Shown: positions 10,399-16,933 of the stretch, piece by piece | Position numbering within the stretch: the first letter of the stretch is position 1 | How the letters are laid out: each line of letters opens with the position of its first letter | Origin: Myxococcus stipitatus | GTDB taxonomy: Bacteria; Myxococcota; Myxococcia; Myxococcales; Myxococcaceae | DNA length: 64,000 nucleotides | Direction: 5' to 3' | NCBI RefSeq assembly: GCF_038561935.1 | Contig: NZ_CP102770.1 | Coordinates: 9,672,001 to 9,736,000, forward strand | Made by a program: the position numbers and the translations under genes | The notes under the pieces: generated by a model | Seen by the model: only the letters and a program-made list of their open reading frames with translations | What the model was told of the DNA's origin: nothing | Database searches by the model: none

Positions 10399-11454
10399 AT
10401 GAAGAAGCGTTGGTGGGTCGCGGGGGCAGTGCTCGGAGTGGCGGCGGGGCTCGTCGTCAAGACGCTCAACGACGCGGGGCAGTTCAAGCAGCTCACGCCC
10501 CACGCGTCCGGCGCCTGCAAGCCCGTCCCGGGGATGCCGGGCGCGGAGGACCTCACCTTCCATCCGACCCTGGGCTTCGCCTACGTCTCCTCGGACGACC
10601 GCCGGGCCACCGCGGCGGGGCGCCCCGTCCCAGGTGGCATCTTCCGCTACGAGCCCGGGAGCAACACGCCGCCGGTGCTGCTCACGCGGGGCTTCTCCCA
10701 GGACTTCCATCCGCACGGCATCAGCCTCTTCGTCGCGCCGGATGGCACGCAGACGCTGTTCGTGGTGAACCACCCCGACGGCGCGACGAACCAGGTGGAG
10801 CGCTTCGAGGTGGGCGCGGACGGGATGCTCGTCCACAAGGCCACGCTGAAGGACCCGCTGCTCCTCTCGCCCAACGACATCCTCGCGGTGGACGCCGAGC
10901 GCTTCTACGTCACGAACGACCACGGCCATCCGCCCGGGGCAATGCGCACGCTGGAGGACTACCTCCAGCTCGGCCTGGGCAGCGTCGTCTACTTCGATGG
11001 TCAGCGTTTCCAGACGGTCATCGAGGGGACGAAGTACGCCAACGGCATCAACGTCTCCCGGGATGGGAAGACGGTGTATCTGACGCAGACGGTGGGCAAG
11101 CTGCTGCAAAGCTATGCGCGAGACCCGGCGACAGGCGCGTTGACGCTGAGCCACGCGAAGGTGCTGGACACCGCGCCGGACAACATCGAGCTGGATGCGC
11201 AGGGCGACCTCTGGATTGCGGCGCATCCCAAGCTGTTCGACTTCGTGTCGCATGCGACGGACCCGAAGGGCCTCGCCCGAGCGCCCGCGCAGGTGCTGCG
11301 CTTCTCCGGCACGGGCGCGGACATGAAGGTCACCGAGGTCTACCTCGACGACGGGAAGCAGACCGCCGCCACGGCCACCGCGGCCGTCTTCGGCAAGCGG
11401 ATGCTGCTGGGTCCCGTGTTCGACGCGGACATCCTCGACTGCGAGCTGCCCTAG
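10399..11454 (+). CDS. Paraoxonase/arylesterase-like beta-propeller protein
   Basis: 351 residues with an N-terminal membrane anchor or signal (KKRWWVAGAVLGVAAGLVVK). The body follows the paraoxonase / SMP-30 six-bladed propeller: GAEDLTFHPTLGFAYVSSDD, FHPHGISLF, LFVVNHPDG, LSPNDILAVDAERFYVTNDH, GTKYANGINVSRDGKTVYL and DNIELDAQGDLWIAAHPKL. The Asn/Asp residues in LSPNDI, TNDH and YANGI correspond to calcium ligands of the family. It is likely a periplasmic lactonase or arylesterase. Its stop shares CTAG with the convergent ankyrin gene. Confidence 0.85.
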   Translation: MKKRWWVAGAVLGVAAGLVVKTLNDAGQFKQLTPHASGACKPVPGMPGAEDLTFHPTLGFAYVSSDDRRATAAGRPVPGGIFRYEPGSNTPPVLLTRGFSQDFHPHGISLFVAPDGTQTLFVVNHPDGATNQVERFEVGADGMLVHKATLKDPLLLSPNDILAVDAERFYVTNDHGHPPGAMRTLEDYLQLGLGSVVYFDGQRFQTVIEGTKYANGINVSRDGKTVYLTQTVGKLLQSYARDPATGALTLSHAKVLDTAPDNIELDAQGDLWIAAHPKLFDFVSHATDPKGLARAPAQVLRFSGTGADMKVTEVYLDDGKQTAATATAAVFGKRMLLGPVFDADILDCELP

Positions 11455-12872
11455 CGCGCGGCGCCAGGTGGAGGCTTGGGCGGCGCCCTCTCCCGACTCA
11501 GCCCCGCCGCATACAGCTGCGGGCCCAACATCTGGGACTCCCGCGCACGCACCCGCAGCCAATCCAGGTGCGTCTCATCCGGGTGCCGAAGCGGCACACC
11601 GCCCTCTCGCAGGGCCTGGATGACCTGCACGGTGACCCGCTCGGGGCAACGCACCTGGGGGACGACGGCCTCTTCGTAGAGCCCCGCCCCTCCATCCGGC
11701 GGCACGTCCCAGCGAGCCCCTCGCTGCAACAACAGGGCAACCACCTTCGGCACACACCCGCTCGCCGCCTCCATCAACGGCGTCCTGTGCGCGTCCCCCT
11801 TGTTGATGTCCGCCTGGGCCTCCACCAACCGCTGCACCTGTGACAGCTCCACGGGCGCGTATCCTCGCAGCGCCGCAAGCAGGGGTGTCACCCCCTTCTT
11901 CCCCGGGAGATTCACTTCCGCGCCCGCGGCGAGCAGCGCATCGACGAGCACCGGGTCCCGGCGCCGCACCGCATGGATGAGCAACGTGTCGCCATCCTCG
12001 TCCCGGCTGTCGGGAGAAGCGCCCTTCTCGAGCAGGTGCAGCACCACCGACTTCATCCCCTTGTCCATCAGCGACACGAGCCCAGGCGGTGGATGACCTG
12101 CCTTCACGAGGGCGAGTACGGCCTTCTCGTCATACTCCTCCATGGCCCTCTCCACGACAGTGGGCACCGTGATGACGATGCCCGAGCCGGGCCTCATCGA
12201 CACATTCATCCCGGGCGCCACGTGCAGCGACACGTGGACGGGCCTACGAGGGTTGAACCCCGCCTCGTCCACCGCTCGAATCATCGCGACGCTTTGTTGC
12301 TCGACCGCCTCATCCAGTGCCTTTCGGAGGACCTCATGCTGAATCCGCCCCTTCGCGCGGCGGCCCAGCAGCAAGGCACGCCTCGCGTCCTTCTTCCGCA
12401 CGGCCGCCAGGAAGTCCGCTTCCATCAGACACGCCTCGTCGCCGCTCGCGCCCGCCTGAACCAACAGCTTCTCCGGACCGGACTCCAGCGAGGCGCGTGC
12501 GAAGCACCGCGCGGACCAGCCCGTGGGCGGCCACAGCGAGCGATGCCGGGGCACTCTCAAGTGAAGGTCTGCCTTCGCCTTCAACAGCAGGCGGACAATG
12601 GGCGCATGGCCTCTCTCGCTCGCCACCATCAGCGGCGTCATGAGGGGGTAGTCCCCCTTGGGGTCGCCCGTCCTGTTGACGGCGGTGCCTCCGCCGAGCA
12701 GCGACCGCATCTGGTCGACGTCTCCATCGCGTGCCGCGTCGATGACGGGGACCTCCGGCTTGAACGTAACCTCACGCCGGTGAAGGAAGGTCGTCGCGGC
12801 GGACGAGCCGCTCGACAAGACGAGGCACACCAGCACCCACGAGGACAGCACTCGAAAGAACCCGGGCCTCAT
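11451..12872 (-). CDS. Exported ankyrin-repeat protein (cassette copy B)
   Basis: 473 residues from ATG 12872, with signal peptide (MRPGFFRVLSSWVLVCLVLSS). Ankyrin repeats appear at about residues 60-90 (LMTPLMVASERGHAPIVRLL), 275-345 (GDTLLIHAVRRRDPVLVDAL, GVTPLLAALRGYAPVELSQV) and 355-390 (HRTPLMEAASGCVPKVVALL). Between them lies a conserved middle (ARCFARASLESG, FLAAVRKKDARRALLLGRRAKG). It is the clear paralogue of 13856-15265. Its ATG overlaps the stop of the cysteine-rich gene (ATGA at 12869-12872), so the two are translationally coupled. Possibly an adaptor in the envelope; the partner is unknown. Confidence 0.82.
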   Translation of the reverse strand: MRPGFFRVLSSWVLVCLVLSSGSSAATTFLHRREVTFKPEVPVIDAARDGDVDQMRSLLGGGTAVNRTGDPKGDYPLMTPLMVASERGHAPIVRLLLKAKADLHLRVPRHRSLWPPTGWSARCFARASLESGPEKLLVQAGASGDEACLMEADFLAAVRKKDARRALLLGRRAKGRIQHEVLRKALDEAVEQQSVAMIRAVDEAGFNPRRPVHVSLHVAPGMNVSMRPGSGIVITVPTVVERAMEEYDEKAVLALVKAGHPPPGLVSLMDKGMKSVVLHLLEKGASPDSRDEDGDTLLIHAVRRRDPVLVDALLAAGAEVNLPGKKGVTPLLAALRGYAPVELSQVQRLVEAQADINKGDAHRTPLMEAASGCVPKVVALLLQRGARWDVPPDGGAGLYEEAVVPQVRCPERVTVQVIQALREGGVPLRHPDETHLDWLRVRARESQMLGPQLYAAGLSRERAPPKPPPGAAR

Positions 12873-13816
12873 GGCAAGCCCCTCGTCTGGGTGGAGAACC
12901 ACCGCAGCTTGTCGAGCCTCGCGTCCCGGGTGCGCCGATACAACGCCTCGATGCATCCCTCTTGCGAGGTCTCGCTCCGGCGTTCGGAGTAGGAGCCCCA
13001 GCGCTCCAGACAGCGCATCAGGTCGACGTCGAACGGGGTGAAGGGCGCGAGGTTCTCGACCCGTGGAAGCGCGTCCGCGTCGCTCAGCCCGAAGAGCGCC
13101 TCGCTCCACGACTGCAGGCAGGATTGGACCTTCGACGGGCCCGGCTCGGTGTCCAGACACTGCCCCGGCGTGGAGCGCCCCTTCGCGGCCCAGGAGGGCC
13201 CTTCGGGCATCAGCCCTCGATAGTAGACCTTGGGACGGGCCTCGCTCGTGGCGCAGTCCTCGGGGCAGTTGCAGGGTTGCTCGAACACGCTGCACACGCC
13301 GTCGCCACAGCGGAGGCAGACGGGCTCGACCGGCTCTCCCTCCGCCTCCGTGTCACACGTCTCGTCTTCAAATTCGACCCCACACCGAGGAGCGAGCCCG
13401 GGGCAACACGCCCCGCTGCCAACCGGGCTGCCTTCTCCCACGCAAGTCCCCTGCCCCCGGCCGGGCTCCTGACGCCGGCAGAACCGCACGCCATCGCAAT
13501 AGGAGGCGGCCTCGCAGTCCTGGGGGTACTCGCCACAGCGCTCCGCGGACAGTCCCTCGCACCACACGTCCGCGGCCGGGGACGCCTCTGGCACCTCCTC
13601 CGGGATGCTCGGCGCCTGGCGGGCTTCGACGGGACGCACCTCCACGCTCCGGGAAGGCACCTCGGGCGTGCCAGGAGGAACACCCGAATCCACGGGCCCC
13701 ATCGACGGCGCTTCCGGGGGACTCGGCTCCCGCAGGGCGAAGGCGACGGCTCCCCCCGTCAGCAGGCAGAGCGCGACGACCAGCAGGTTCTTCGTGACGG
13801 TGACACGCCGAGCCAT
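12869..13816 (-). CDS. Cysteine-rich membrane-anchored protein (cassette copy B)
   Basis: 315 residues from ATG 13816; a TTG start at 13828 is possible. A single N-terminal membrane segment (TKNLLVVALCLLTGGAVAFAL) is followed by a Pro/Glu-rich stalk. The cysteine-rich central region (WCEGLSAERCG, YCDGVRFCRR, GACCPGLAPRCG, LRCGDGVCSVFEQPCNCPED) includes the CGDGVC...CNCPEDC unit common in myxobacterial surface proteins. The C-terminal domain ends near APFTPFDVDLMRCLERWGSY. About 20 cysteines suggest an extracytoplasmic disulfide-bonded protein. Paralogue of 15262-16290. Confidence 0.8.
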   Translation of the reverse strand: MARRVTVTKNLLVVALCLLTGGAVAFALREPSPPEAPSMGPVDSGVPPGTPEVPSRSVEVRPVEARQAPSIPEEVPEASPAADVWCEGLSAERCGEYPQDCEAASYCDGVRFCRRQEPGRGQGTCVGEGSPVGSGACCPGLAPRCGVEFEDETCDTEAEGEPVEPVCLRCGDGVCSVFEQPCNCPEDCATSEARPKVYYRGLMPEGPSWAAKGRSTPGQCLDTEPGPSKVQSCLQSWSEALFGLSDADALPRVENLAPFTPFDVDLMRCLERWGSYSERRSETSQEGCIEALYRRTRDARLDKLRWFSTQTRGLP

Positions 13817-13817
13817 G

Positions 13818-13848
13818 CCGTCATTCAACCCAATGACAGTGGCAATTG
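13818..13848. repeat. 31-bp repeat element upstream of cassette copy B
   Basis: Identical over all 31 bases to 16292-16322. It ends just before the ATG of the cysteine-rich gene and contains a perfect inverted repeat, GTCATT (13820-13825) and AATGAC (13832-13837), with a 6-base spacer. Since the flanking coding paralogues have clearly diverged, the identity suggests a conserved promoter/operator or leader element. Confidence 0.7.
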
Positions 13849-13855
13849 AAATGCC

Positions 13856-15265
13856 CTATCGAGACGGTGACCCCTGCTCCGGCCGCAGTCCCGCCGCGTA
13901 CAGCTCCGGGCCCAGCATCTGGGACTCCCGCGCGCGCGCGCGCATCCAGTCCAGGTCCGGCGTCCCCGGAGGGTGGAACGGAACGCCCCCCTCTCGGAGC
14001 GCGCGGAGGACCTGCACGGCGACCTTCTCGGGGCAGGACACCTGGGGGACGACGGCCTCCTCGTAGAGTCCTGGGCCTCCGCCCGGGGGCACATCCCAGC
14101 GAGCCCCCTTCTGCAACAACAAGGAGACCGCCCTCGGCAGACACCGGCTCGCCGCCTCCATCAACGGCGTCCTGTAGCGGCCCGCCTTGTTCACGTCCGC
14201 CTTGGCCTCCAAGAGCCGCTCCACCAGCGACAGCTCCACGGGCTTGTCCCCCTGCAGCGCCGCCATCAACGGCGTCACCTCCACCTCGCCCGGAAGATTC
14301 ACGTCCGCGCCCGCGGCGAGCAGCGCATCCACGAGCACCCGGTTCCGGTCCAGCGCCGCCTCGATGAGCGGCGTGTTGCCCCCCCTCTCCCCGATGTCCG
14401 GGTTGGCGCCCGACTTGAGCTGATGCAGCACCACCGAGTTCATTCCCCAGCGCACCAGCATCATGAGCATGGGCGGCGTCTCCCCCGCCCTCACGAGGGC
14501 GAGCACGGTCGCCTCGTCGCGCTCCTGCATCGCCTTCCGCGTGGGAGTGAGCGCGGAGATGGAGATGTGCGAGTCGGGCCGCATCGACACGTCCGCGCCG
14601 GAGGCCACCGGCAGGTTGACGTGGAACCCTCCGCCATTTCCCGGCTGGAAGCCCGCCGCGTCCACGGCGCGAATCATCGCCATGCTCTGCTGCTCGATGG
14701 CCAGCATCAGGGCCTTCTGGAGGACCCGCTGCTGAATCCTGCCCTTCGAGCGTCGCGCCAGCTGCAAGGCCCGCTTCTCGTCCTTCTTCCGCACGGCGGC
14801 CAGGAAGTCCGCGTCATCCAGACACTCCGCATCGCCGCTCGCGCCAGCCGCCACCAGGACCTTCTCCGCGGCGGCCTTCTGCTCGGACCGGGCGAAGCAC
14901 CTCGCGGACCAGCCATAGGGCGGCCACATCCCCGAATGCCGAGGCACACGCAGGAGCGGGTCCGCCTTCGCCTTCAGCAACATGCGGATGATGGGCGCAT
15001 GACCGTTCTCGGCCGCCACCATCAGCGGCGACATGCCGTGGATGTCACCCGCGCCCTCGCCCGGTCCGTTGACCGCGACGGTGCTCGCGAGCGCCTCCTT
15101 CATCTTCGCCGCGTCGCCATGGATGGCCGCATCGAAGAGGGGGGAGTAGTTCCCTCCCTTGATGATCTGGATGACCTCCCGCCGCGTCCGCGCGGCGGCG
15201 GGGCCGCTCGAGACGAGACAGGCCAACACACACGACGACAGCACTCGAACGAGAAAGGGCTTCAT
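13856..15265 (-). CDS. Exported ankyrin-repeat protein (cassette copy A)
   Basis: 469 residues from ATG 15265 with signal peptide (MKPFLVRVLSSCVLACLVSS, cleavage likely near PAAA). Ankyrin units: GMSPLMVAAENGHAPIIRML (about 70-95), GNTPLIEAALDRNRVLVDAL, EVTPLMAALQGDKPVELSLV and RYRTPLMEAASRCLPRAVSL. The middle region (WPPYGWSARCFAR, FLAAVRKKDEKRALQLARRS, AIEQQSMAMIRAVDAAGF) matches copy B nearly line for line. It overlaps the upstream cysteine-rich gene by ATGA at 15262-15265 and ends 40 bases before the start of copy B. Confidence 0.82.
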   Translation of the reverse strand: MKPFLVRVLSSCVLACLVSSGPAAARTRREVIQIIKGGNYSPLFDAAIHGDAAKMKEALASTVAVNGPGEGAGDIHGMSPLMVAAENGHAPIIRMLLKAKADPLLRVPRHSGMWPPYGWSARCFARSEQKAAAEKVLVAAGASGDAECLDDADFLAAVRKKDEKRALQLARRSKGRIQQRVLQKALMLAIEQQSMAMIRAVDAAGFQPGNGGGFHVNLPVASGADVSMRPDSHISISALTPTRKAMQERDEATVLALVRAGETPPMLMMLVRWGMNSVVLHQLKSGANPDIGERGGNTPLIEAALDRNRVLVDALLAAGADVNLPGEVEVTPLMAALQGDKPVELSLVERLLEAKADVNKAGRYRTPLMEAASRCLPRAVSLLLQKGARWDVPPGGGPGLYEEAVVPQVSCPEKVAVQVLRALREGGVPFHPPGTPDLDWMRARARESQMLGPELYAAGLRPEQGSPSR

Positions 15266-16290
15266 CGCGAGCGTCCATACGAAGAGGAGAACCACCGCAA
15301 CTTGTCGAGCCGTGAGTCGCGGGTGCGCAGGTACAGCGCCTCGATGCACCCCTCGCGCGAAATCTCACTCCGGCGGGCGGCATAGGAAGACCCGCGCTCC
15401 AGACAGCGCAGCAGGTCGACGTCGAACGGCGTGAAGGGCTTGAGGTCCTCGACGTGCTGGAGCGCCTCGGAGTCTCGCAGTCCGAAGAGGCCCTCGCTCC
15501 ACGACTCCAGGCAGCGCTGGATGCCCTCTGGGGAAGCCTGGGTGTCCAGACACTGCCCAGGGGTGGTGGTCCCTTTCGGAGCAACGTCCTCGGGCGGGAC
15601 GTCCCTGGGCCACGGCCCTTGGAAGCGCCGCTTCGGCCGCGCCTCGCTCGTGGCGCAGTCCTCGGGACAGTTGCAGGCCTGCTCGAACGGGCCACACACG
15701 CCGTCGCCACAGCGAAGACAGACAGGCTCCGACGCATCGCCCTTCTGGGGGTCGCACGCCTCGTGTCCTCTCGTCGGAACCCCACACCGGGCCACGAGGC
15801 CGGAGCAACACGCCACGTTGGCCCCCAGGATGCCTTCCGCCGCGCAGCTCTCCTCGCTGGGGAACTCCGGCCGGCTCCTGCAGAACCGCACGCCGTCGCA
15901 GTAGACGCCGACCTCGCAGTCCTCGCGGTGGCTGCCGCAGCGCTCCACGGACAGGCCCTCACACCACACAGCCGGGTTCTTCGGACGAAACGTCGGCCCC
16001 GGCGGCATCCGGCGTGGCATGCGCGGGTCGACGAAAGCCCCATCGAGGCGCGCCGTCCTCACTTCCCGGATGGGAACCTTCGGCCCCTCCTTGGGAACCT
16101 TCGGCGCCTGCGTGGGAACCGCGGGTCCTCCCGTGGGAACACCCGCGTCCACGGGCTCCATCGGCGGCGGCTCCGGAGCGCTCGGCTCACGCAAGGCGAA
16201 CGCCGCGGCTCCGCCCACGAGCAGGCAGAGCACGACGACGAGCAGGTTCTTCGTGACCCGCCGGTGCGGCGAGGGAGCGGCCTGTGCCAT
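15262..16290 (-). CDS. Cysteine-rich membrane-anchored protein (cassette copy A)
   Basis: 342 residues from ATG 16290 (alternative TTG 16302). One N-terminal membrane segment (TKNLLVVVLCLLVGGAAAF) leads into a Pro-rich stalk with a short tandem pattern (PAVPTQAPKVPKEGPKVP), longer than in copy B. The cysteine-rich core (WCEGLSVERCG, YCDGVRFCRS, VACCSGLVARCG, LRCGDGVCGPFEQACNCPED) and the end (FTPFDVDLLRCLERGSSYAARR) match copy B. It lies 55 bases after the sodB stop on the same strand. Probably periplasmic or surface-exposed; function unknown. Confidence 0.8.
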   Translation of the reverse strand: MAQAAPSPHRRVTKNLLVVVLCLLVGGAAAFALREPSAPEPPPMEPVDAGVPTGGPAVPTQAPKVPKEGPKVPIREVRTARLDGAFVDPRMPRRMPPGPTFRPKNPAVWCEGLSVERCGSHREDCEVGVYCDGVRFCRSRPEFPSEESCAAEGILGANVACCSGLVARCGVPTRGHEACDPQKGDASEPVCLRCGDGVCGPFEQACNCPEDCATSEARPKRRFQGPWPRDVPPEDVAPKGTTTPGQCLDTQASPEGIQRCLESWSEGLFGLRDSEALQHVEDLKPFTPFDVDLLRCLERGSSYAARRSEISREGCIEALYLRTRDSRLDKLRWFSSSYGRSR

Positions 16291-16291
16291 C

Positions 16292-16322
16292 CCGTCATTC
16301 AACCCAATGACAGTGGCAATTG
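16292..16322. repeat. 31-bp repeat element upstream of cassette copy A
   Basis: Second exact copy of the element at 13818-13848, in the same position relative to its cysteine-rich gene, with GTCATT (16294-16299) and AATGAC (16306-16311) as an inverted repeat. It sits between the sodB stop (16346) and the ATG at 16290. Confidence 0.7.
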
Positions 16323-16345
16323 GAAAGCCGCCCCCCGGCGCGAGG

Positions 16346-16933
16346 CTAGCGGGCCTTCAGGTTCTGGGCGACGAAGTCCCAGTTGACCAGGTGGTTCAGG
16401 AACGTCTCGATGAACTTCGGCCGCAGGTTGCGGTAGTCGATGTAGTAGGCGTGCTCCCACACGTCGATGGTCAGCAGCGCCTTCTGGCCGTGCTTCATCG
16501 GCAGGTCCGCGTTGCTCGTCTTGGTGACGGCCAGCTTGCCGTCCTTGCCCGCGACCAGCCACGCCCAGCCGGAGCCGAACTGCGTCGCGGCGGCGTTGGA
16601 GAACTCCTCCTTGAACTTGGCGAAGGAGCCAAAGTCCCGGTTGATGGCCTCCAGCAGCTCGCCCGTCGGCTCACCGCCGCCCTTGGGCTTCATGCAGTTC
16701 CAGAAGAAGGTGTGGTTCCAGACCTGCGCCGCGTTGTTGAACACGCCACCGTCGCTGCTCAGGATGATCTCCTCCAGCGACTTGCTCGCCTCGGGCTTGC
16801 CATCCAGCAGCTTGTTCAGGTTGTTGACGTAGGCGGCGTGGTGCTTGTCGTAGTGGTACGAGAAAGTCTCCTCGCTCATGTGAGGAGCCAGCGCGTCCTT
16901 CTTGTACGGGAGTTCGGGCAGAGCGAAGGGCAT
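16346..16933 (-). CDS. sodB: Iron superoxide dismutase
   Basis: 195 residues, normal length. It converts superoxide to H2O2 and O2 in the cytoplasm. Metal ligands are H27 (SYHYDKHH), H74 (VWNHTFFW), D157 and H161 (DVWEHAYY). Q70 in NNAAQVWNH is the active-site glutamine position typical of the Fe form. The signature GSGWAWL is present and no signal peptide is seen. A perfect 15-bp palindrome lies 79 bases upstream of the start. Confidence 0.96.
   Translation of the reverse strand: MPFALPELPYKKDALAPHMSEETFSYHYDKHHAAYVNNLNKLLDGKPEASKSLEEIILSSDGGVFNNAAQVWNHTFFWNCMKPKGGGEPTGELLEAINRDFGSFAKFKEEFSNAAATQFGSGWAWLVAGKDGKLAVTKTSNADLPMKHGQKALLTIDVWEHAYYIDYRNLRPKFIETFLNHLVNWDFVAQNLKAR

Follow-up and report, generated by a model that had tools for sequence, protein, structure and literature searches.

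A conserved, family-private leader, probably a promoter, heads tandem cysteine-rich/ankyrin operons beside sodB in Myxococcus stipitatus

The cassette array and its leader

We analysed a stretch of 64,000 nucleotides from Myxococcus stipitatus (assembly GCF_038561935.1, contig NZ_CP102770.1, positions 9,672,001 to 9,736,000 of the forward strand), referred to as the window and used for the coordinates below, and studied a small gene array within it together with the short leader that precedes each of its units. The array consists of two units, B and A, that lie head-to-tail on the minus strand and immediately follow sodB, encoding an Fe/Mn superoxide dismutase (SOD; 16346..16933, minus strand), and that meet at their other end a convergent arylesterase/SMP-30-like gene (10399..11454, plus strand). 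These two genes are the upstream and downstream neighbours of the array in all four genomes that carry one. Unit B encodes: a cysteine-rich (Cys-rich) protein of 342 amino acids (aa; 15262..16290, minus strand) with an N-terminal hydrophobic anchor, a proline-rich linker, a Cys-rich domain containing the motif CGDGVC and a confidently modelled helical C-terminal domain; and an ankyrin-repeat protein of 469 aa (13856..15265, minus strand; Ank_2, 6.5e-22) with a probable signal peptide, as judged by eye. Unit A encodes their counterparts: a Cys-rich protein of 315 aa (12869..13816, minus strand), included in the Cys-rich alignment, and an ankyrin-repeat protein of 473 aa (11451..12872, minus strand; Ank, 3.7e-21), again with a probable signal peptide by eye. 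The coordinates bear out the description in a first-pass annotation, made from the sequence alone, of two coupled two-gene cassettes with diverged proteins: both units have a 4-base ATGA overlap between their genes, as do all 14 two-gene copies examined, and the identity between the units is 58% for the Cys-rich and 62% for the ankyrin proteins.

That annotation also reported an identical 31-bp element before each first gene, and the run CAATTGCCACTGTCATTGGGTTGAATGACGG was indeed found at 16292..16322 (unit B) and 13818..13848 (unit A), both on the minus strand and ending 1 base before the ATG. The length of the run proves little, because the coding parts of the two units share exact runs of 29, 26 and 26 bp as well; it is the dissimilarity of the flanks that makes the leader stand out, as the two units share only 30% identity over the 40 bp that precede the aligned 40-bp leader. 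The core of the leader can be written as TTYCCA-N15-GGGTTGAATG. In unit B it occupies 16296-16326 without mismatches and would provide a putative -35 block (TTTCCA), an 18-bp spacer and a putative -10 block (TTGAAT); in unit A it occupies 13822-13852 with 2 mismatches, both in the putative -35 part (ATTTCA). The TTG within the element can be dismissed as a start codon: 7 of the 22 related leaders described below have it in a different frame from the ATG.

Conservation and exclusivity of the leader core

The leader is a real, selected and family-private element. The mean pairwise identity over 12 array copies was 0.931 for the 34-bp core, as compared to 0.693 for 129 fourfold degenerate columns of the coding parts and 0.359 for the 40 bp upstream, and invariant columns made up 24/34 of the core and 33/129 of the fourfold set. 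Not one of 100,000 resamplings of the fourfold columns reached the identity of the core, which supports the earlier suspicion that the leader is under selection. Within a wider set of 22 leaders, which includes those of two sodB-linked anchor genes and of one broken operon, the spacing between TTYCC and TTGAAT is constant and the gap between TTGAAT and the ATG is 6 nt (15 leaders) or 7 nt (7 leaders). The same core heads operons in which the ankyrin gene comes first (genomes G060, G065 and G067) as well as a fusion of both genes into one open reading frame (ORF; G058 and G059), and it therefore tracks the 5' end of the operon and not one particular gene.

Among the 27 genomes of the genus, TTYCCA-N15-GGGTTGAATG was recovered without mismatches at 15 places, every one of them a cassette or sodB-linked locus. 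Of the 6 places with 1 mismatch, 5 were linked in this way, and the sole unlinked one (L144, in G064) lacks a suitably spaced ATG; of the 59 with 2 mismatches, 2 were linked. Up to 2 mismatches the pattern thus occurs at 80 places, 22 of them linked, and its reversed control at 10. The downstream block on its own, searched as GGGTTGAATG-N3-8-ATG, gave 30 matches (reversed control: 0), 20 of which are linked; at least 4 of the 10 unlinked places precede real-looking genes, namely three orthologues of one 193-aa gene and one kinase-like gene. The sequence before the 193-aa gene is GGGTTGAATGCCCGCCATG in three genus genomes (L109, L119, L129), where no TTYCCA block is present at the cassette spacing. 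The shorter pattern GTTGAAT-N5-8-ATG occurs at 7 places in the M. stipitatus genome (control: 0): before the two cassettes, before four short or doubtful frames and before one 244-aa gene. At this last place (genome position 4393407, L187) the sequence is GTTGAATGACGCCATG, with an upstream block that is not spaced at 18 bp as in the cassette leaders; the product of the 244-aa gene looks like RecO (recO).

The leader as a private promoter

We consider it probable (roughly 60%) that the leader is a promoter private to the cassette family, giving leaderless mRNA, and that the products of the two genes work as a pair. The constant spacing, the fixed distance to the ATG and the decay of the inverted repeat discussed below lead to the promoter reading; the features are those of a bipartite promoter, in which the first gene of the operon is preceded by two conserved blocks whose spacing does not vary. 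Each unit of an old array of two-gene operons would then carry its own copy of this promoter, made up of TTYCCA as the -35-like block, a spacer that is fixed at 18 bp and ends in GGG, and a -10-like TTGAATG located 6-7 nt before the first ATG. With a -10-like block at that distance, transcription by RNA polymerase and some sigma factor would most likely begin with the A of the ATG or right next to it. Bipartite promoters of the sigma-70 family can give leaderless mRNA, and the leader is like them in having two short blocks at a fixed 18-bp spacing with the -10-like block 6-7 nt before the ATG. Inspection by eye revealed no well-spaced Shine-Dalgarno sequence before the first gene, and the ATGA overlap would couple translation of the second gene to that of the first. 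The Cys-rich product is predicted to be anchored in the inner membrane and to have a periplasmic domain rich in disulfides, and its ankyrin-repeat partner is predicted to be periplasmic.

Several observations weigh against this reading. TTYCCA and TTGAAT match the sigma-70 consensus poorly, and the leader further differs from leaderless sigma-70-family promoters in that exact matches to it occur with a single gene family; the motif could not be assigned to any sigma factor or regulator. The 22 leaders were gathered partly with patterns that contain the core, so that the invariance of GTTGAATG is partly built in; the fairer figure comes from the search with the Cys-rich protein, where the leader (at most 2 mismatches in 16) was present at 20 of 21 genus loci, the exception being G077, and where the scoring of at most 22 candidates per genome makes the locus counts lower bounds. 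The homologous gene pairs of Corallococcus G018 and of G077 lack the motif, their best matches having 6 and 7 mismatches in 16 with shuffled sequences doing equally well. Loss of the element in relatives that keep both genes active had been named at the outset as a finding that would tell against its importance, and these two pairs correspond to that situation in part only. The 57 unlinked places with 2 mismatches exceed the 10 places, in all, of the reversed control, and a looser and wider regulon may exist; conserved coding sequence may also be behind the excess, as some of the strings recur, one type in eight genomes. Finally, the fold prediction for the Cys-rich protein was poor except for the C-terminal helices and gave no confident Cys-rich domain.

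In two other Corallococcus genomes (G021, on one contig, and G024) a weak leader was recovered with 4 mismatches in 16 and an ATG 5 nt behind TTGAAT, which was equalled by 3 and 6 of 200 shuffled sequences, respectively; no leader better than chance was found in G018, G026 and G016 of the same genus. A second G021 contig begins inside the gene and was left outside the leader comparison.

The promoter reading can be taken further, tentatively, to a dedicated promoter class with its own sigma factor or activator that serves solely the Cys-rich/ankyrin module, yields leaderless mRNAs and controls a one-family regulon of a hitherto undescribed periplasmic adaptor system. If that were true, the promoter would have stayed with its module when the module was duplicated, when its genes changed places or fused and when the ankyrin gene disappeared. 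In any case the locus offers a natural experiment, in which one regulatory sequence was kept while the proteins that it would drive underwent duplication, reordering, fusion or loss, and a private leaderless promoter would provide a handle on leaderless translation start in myxobacteria and on the regulator of a single gene family.

The inverted repeat within the leader

The element had originally been singled out for the repeat GTCATT-N6-AATGAC, and its rarity is real: at up to 1 mismatch it occurs twice in the window, both times perfectly (0.01 expected), and in the complete 10.17-Mb genome the perfect form is found only in the two leaders, with four further places at 1 mismatch. This makes an operator for a dimeric regulator conceivable, the rest of the leader then being incidental promoter sequence, and such an operator would be in line with the retention of 6/6 dyad pairs in 13 of the 22 leaders and of 5/6 in 2, as well as with two of the seven degraded leaders (those of G060 and G065), in which the outermost G-C pair was replaced on both sides by a still complementary T-A pair. 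We nevertheless regard it as unlikely, as those seven leaders keep only 1-4 of 6 pairs while GTTGAATG stays, and the remaining lost pairs have no matching change in the opposite half-site. The complete dyad is confined to sodB-linked leaders (13 of the 16), the two before short anchor genes having 4/6 and 1/6 pairs. The dyad is therefore not the best-conserved part of the leader and its assignment as the functional part does not hold; what persists is TTYCCA-N15-GGGTTGAATG with an ATG 6-7 nt after TTGAAT. It could be that the dyad was added as an operator within the sodB-linked lineage, on top of the putative promoter.

The encoded proteins and their partnership

Pfam Ank repeats were found above the gathering score in both ankyrin copies, in the fused protein and in two homologues, and no family in Pfam or NCBIfam was above cut-off for either Cys-rich protein. 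Effector names among the NCBIfam matches were discounted, being far below the cut-offs and also reflecting ankyrin repeats, and so were the PADLOC matches (PDC-M72A and others), which are located in the ankyrin part. In the alignment of the Cys-rich family, 16 cysteines are invariant across 8 sequences (13 invariant and 3 nearly so in 22), and the 13 ankyrin-containing alignment rows have four cysteines in common; such shared invariant cysteines fit an oxidising compartment. The inspection by eye of the N-termini, together with an N-terminal helix that modelling predicted with modest confidence for one Cys-rich protein and for the fused protein, makes it probable that the ankyrin proteins are exported and the Cys-rich proteins membrane-anchored. 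Structure comparison with the Cys-rich model gave Z-scores of only 2.5 and 2.0, taken as no match, and a PDB sequence search with the family gave two weak matches only (E 0.017 and 0.028).

The natural fusion supports a working partnership. Its ORF, which directly follows sodB in G058 and G059 (560 and 559 aa), joins the anchor, the first half of the Cys-rich domain and the ankyrins, and both genomes also hold an unlinked two-gene copy. In the model of the fused protein, a helix at the N-terminus is followed by a Cys-rich stretch of low confidence and by an ankyrin solenoid modelled with confidence; the underlying alignment also held four Cys-rich rows that were falsely aligned to the ankyrin part. 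We infer a membrane-tethered, disulfide-rich protein that works with an exported ankyrin partner.

Tandem copies of changing number would also be expected of diversifying effector-immunity or kin-recognition modules, with the ankyrin proteins acting as immunity, and the ratio of nonsynonymous to synonymous substitution rates (dN/dS; determined by our own counting script in three genomes for the cassettes and four for the neighbours) is indeed 0.46-0.62 for the unit A genes against 0.06-0.42 for the neighbouring sod, arylesterase and usp genes. This explanation seems improbable to us: the unit B genes (0.26-0.37) fall within the range of the neighbours and all values are below 1, family and PADLOC scans detected no toxin domain in the four cassette proteins, pairwise identity in one partner correlates with that in the other (0.83), as shared descent by itself could also produce, and a single fused protein exists.

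Distribution and history of the array

Homologues of the Cys-rich protein were found in at least 16 of the 96 genomes of the family (2 of 26 genera) and matches of the ankyrin protein (E ≤ 1e-20) in at least 13, these counts being lower bounds as a limited number of candidates was scored per genome. A record titled Comamonas sp. KCTC 72670 (L168) carries a Myxococcus-type operon, and its title looks wrong. Within the genus, sodB was found in 25 of the 27 genomes, and directly downstream of it are a cassette (four array and two fusion genomes), a short anchor gene (two genomes) or, in the remaining 17, nothing that matched a cassette protein within the 1.5 kb fetched. The short membrane-anchor genes (G062 and G065; 109 and 89 aa; L094 and L100) have the same leader core and are without the Cys-rich/ankyrin part. 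The ankyrin-first operons of G060, G065 and G067 lie away from the sodB array site; one operon of this gene order in G062 (L076, L108, contig 282) has decayed: it retains an intact leader, has lost most of its ankyrin gene and carries a frameshift in the Cys-rich gene.

Comparison across relatives, as had been proposed, revealed that the copy number varies: the units between sodB and the arylesterase gene amount to 2 in M. stipitatus, 4 in G061, 3 in G070 and 3 in G072. In protein trees of 14 copies, A-, B- and C-type copies group across genomes and not by genome (several forks are weak), and the duplication therefore predates the split of these species. The array is thus old, with the two units of M. 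stipitatus as survivors or a subset; the tandem arrangement proposed for them stands, and their duplication is not a recent one. For the same reason recent gene conversion of whole cassettes, put forward earlier as a possible cause of the identical leaders, is not supported.

The history of unit B suggests a deletion that was joined at or near the leader, because its upstream 40 bp equal those of the first unit of G061, whereas its proteins are closest to those of the second unit of G061 and their G070 orthologue. One might thus suppose that the identity of the leaders stems from repeated short gene conversion or unequal recombination, the leader being a recombination seam without function of its own. 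We give this little credence, given that the copies cluster by orthologue type and that unlinked loci, ankyrin-first operons and fusions with other flanks retain the core as well. An RNA hairpin in the 5' untranslated region (an attenuator or an occluder of the start codon) is the least likely of all. GUCAUU-N6-AAUGAC could pair as a 6-bp stem just before the ATG and the seven degraded leaders keep 3-6 of 6 pairs when G-U is counted, but only one of them (sodB-linked, in G062) reaches 6/6, the other six keep 3-5 and have lost inner pairs, and the stem would lie outside the transcript if TTGAAT is the -10 block.

Relation to known systems

Ankyrin proteins that serve catalases have been described: the periplasmic AnkB with KatB in Pseudomonas aeruginosa, a helper of KatA in Campylobacter jejuni and an ank-katE operon in Leptospira (PMC7567364). 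The cassette resembles these systems in that an apparently exported ankyrin-repeat protein is encoded beside an oxidant-defence gene; it differs in that the neighbour is sodB, that the ankyrin gene shares its operon with one for a Cys-rich membrane protein and that several loci are unlinked to sodB. The linkage to a catalase that marks AnkB-type systems is absent here, the genes adjacent to the array encoding a Usp protein, the Fe/Mn SOD and the arylesterase-like protein. On the basis of the sodB neighbour and of the catalase helpers elsewhere, a role in envelope or oxidative-stress protection might be guessed at, albeit weakly; the unlinked cassettes imply that sodB would not be required for it. 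Our literature search yielded no description of the cassette, including in passages of PMC8195603, which in itself does not prove that there is none.

A first scan of a wider set of contigs for the Cys-rich domain gave no match, and an alignment-based scan gave 22 loci. Segments of the CGDGVC/CPEDC type (L170-L185) were seen in a Myxococcales metagenome-assembled genome (MAG) and in MAGs of archaea, Patescibacteria and other groups, and no match to the ankyrin partner was present at E ≤ 0.01 in the 16 stretches fetched, some of which are short. Such CGDGVC/CNCPEDC-type segments of other bacteria and archaea share the cysteine pattern and mostly cover part of the domain, at 29-67% identity over part of the query; the Myxococcales MAG (L170) matches residues 110-217, that is the whole Cys-rich stretch, at 37%.

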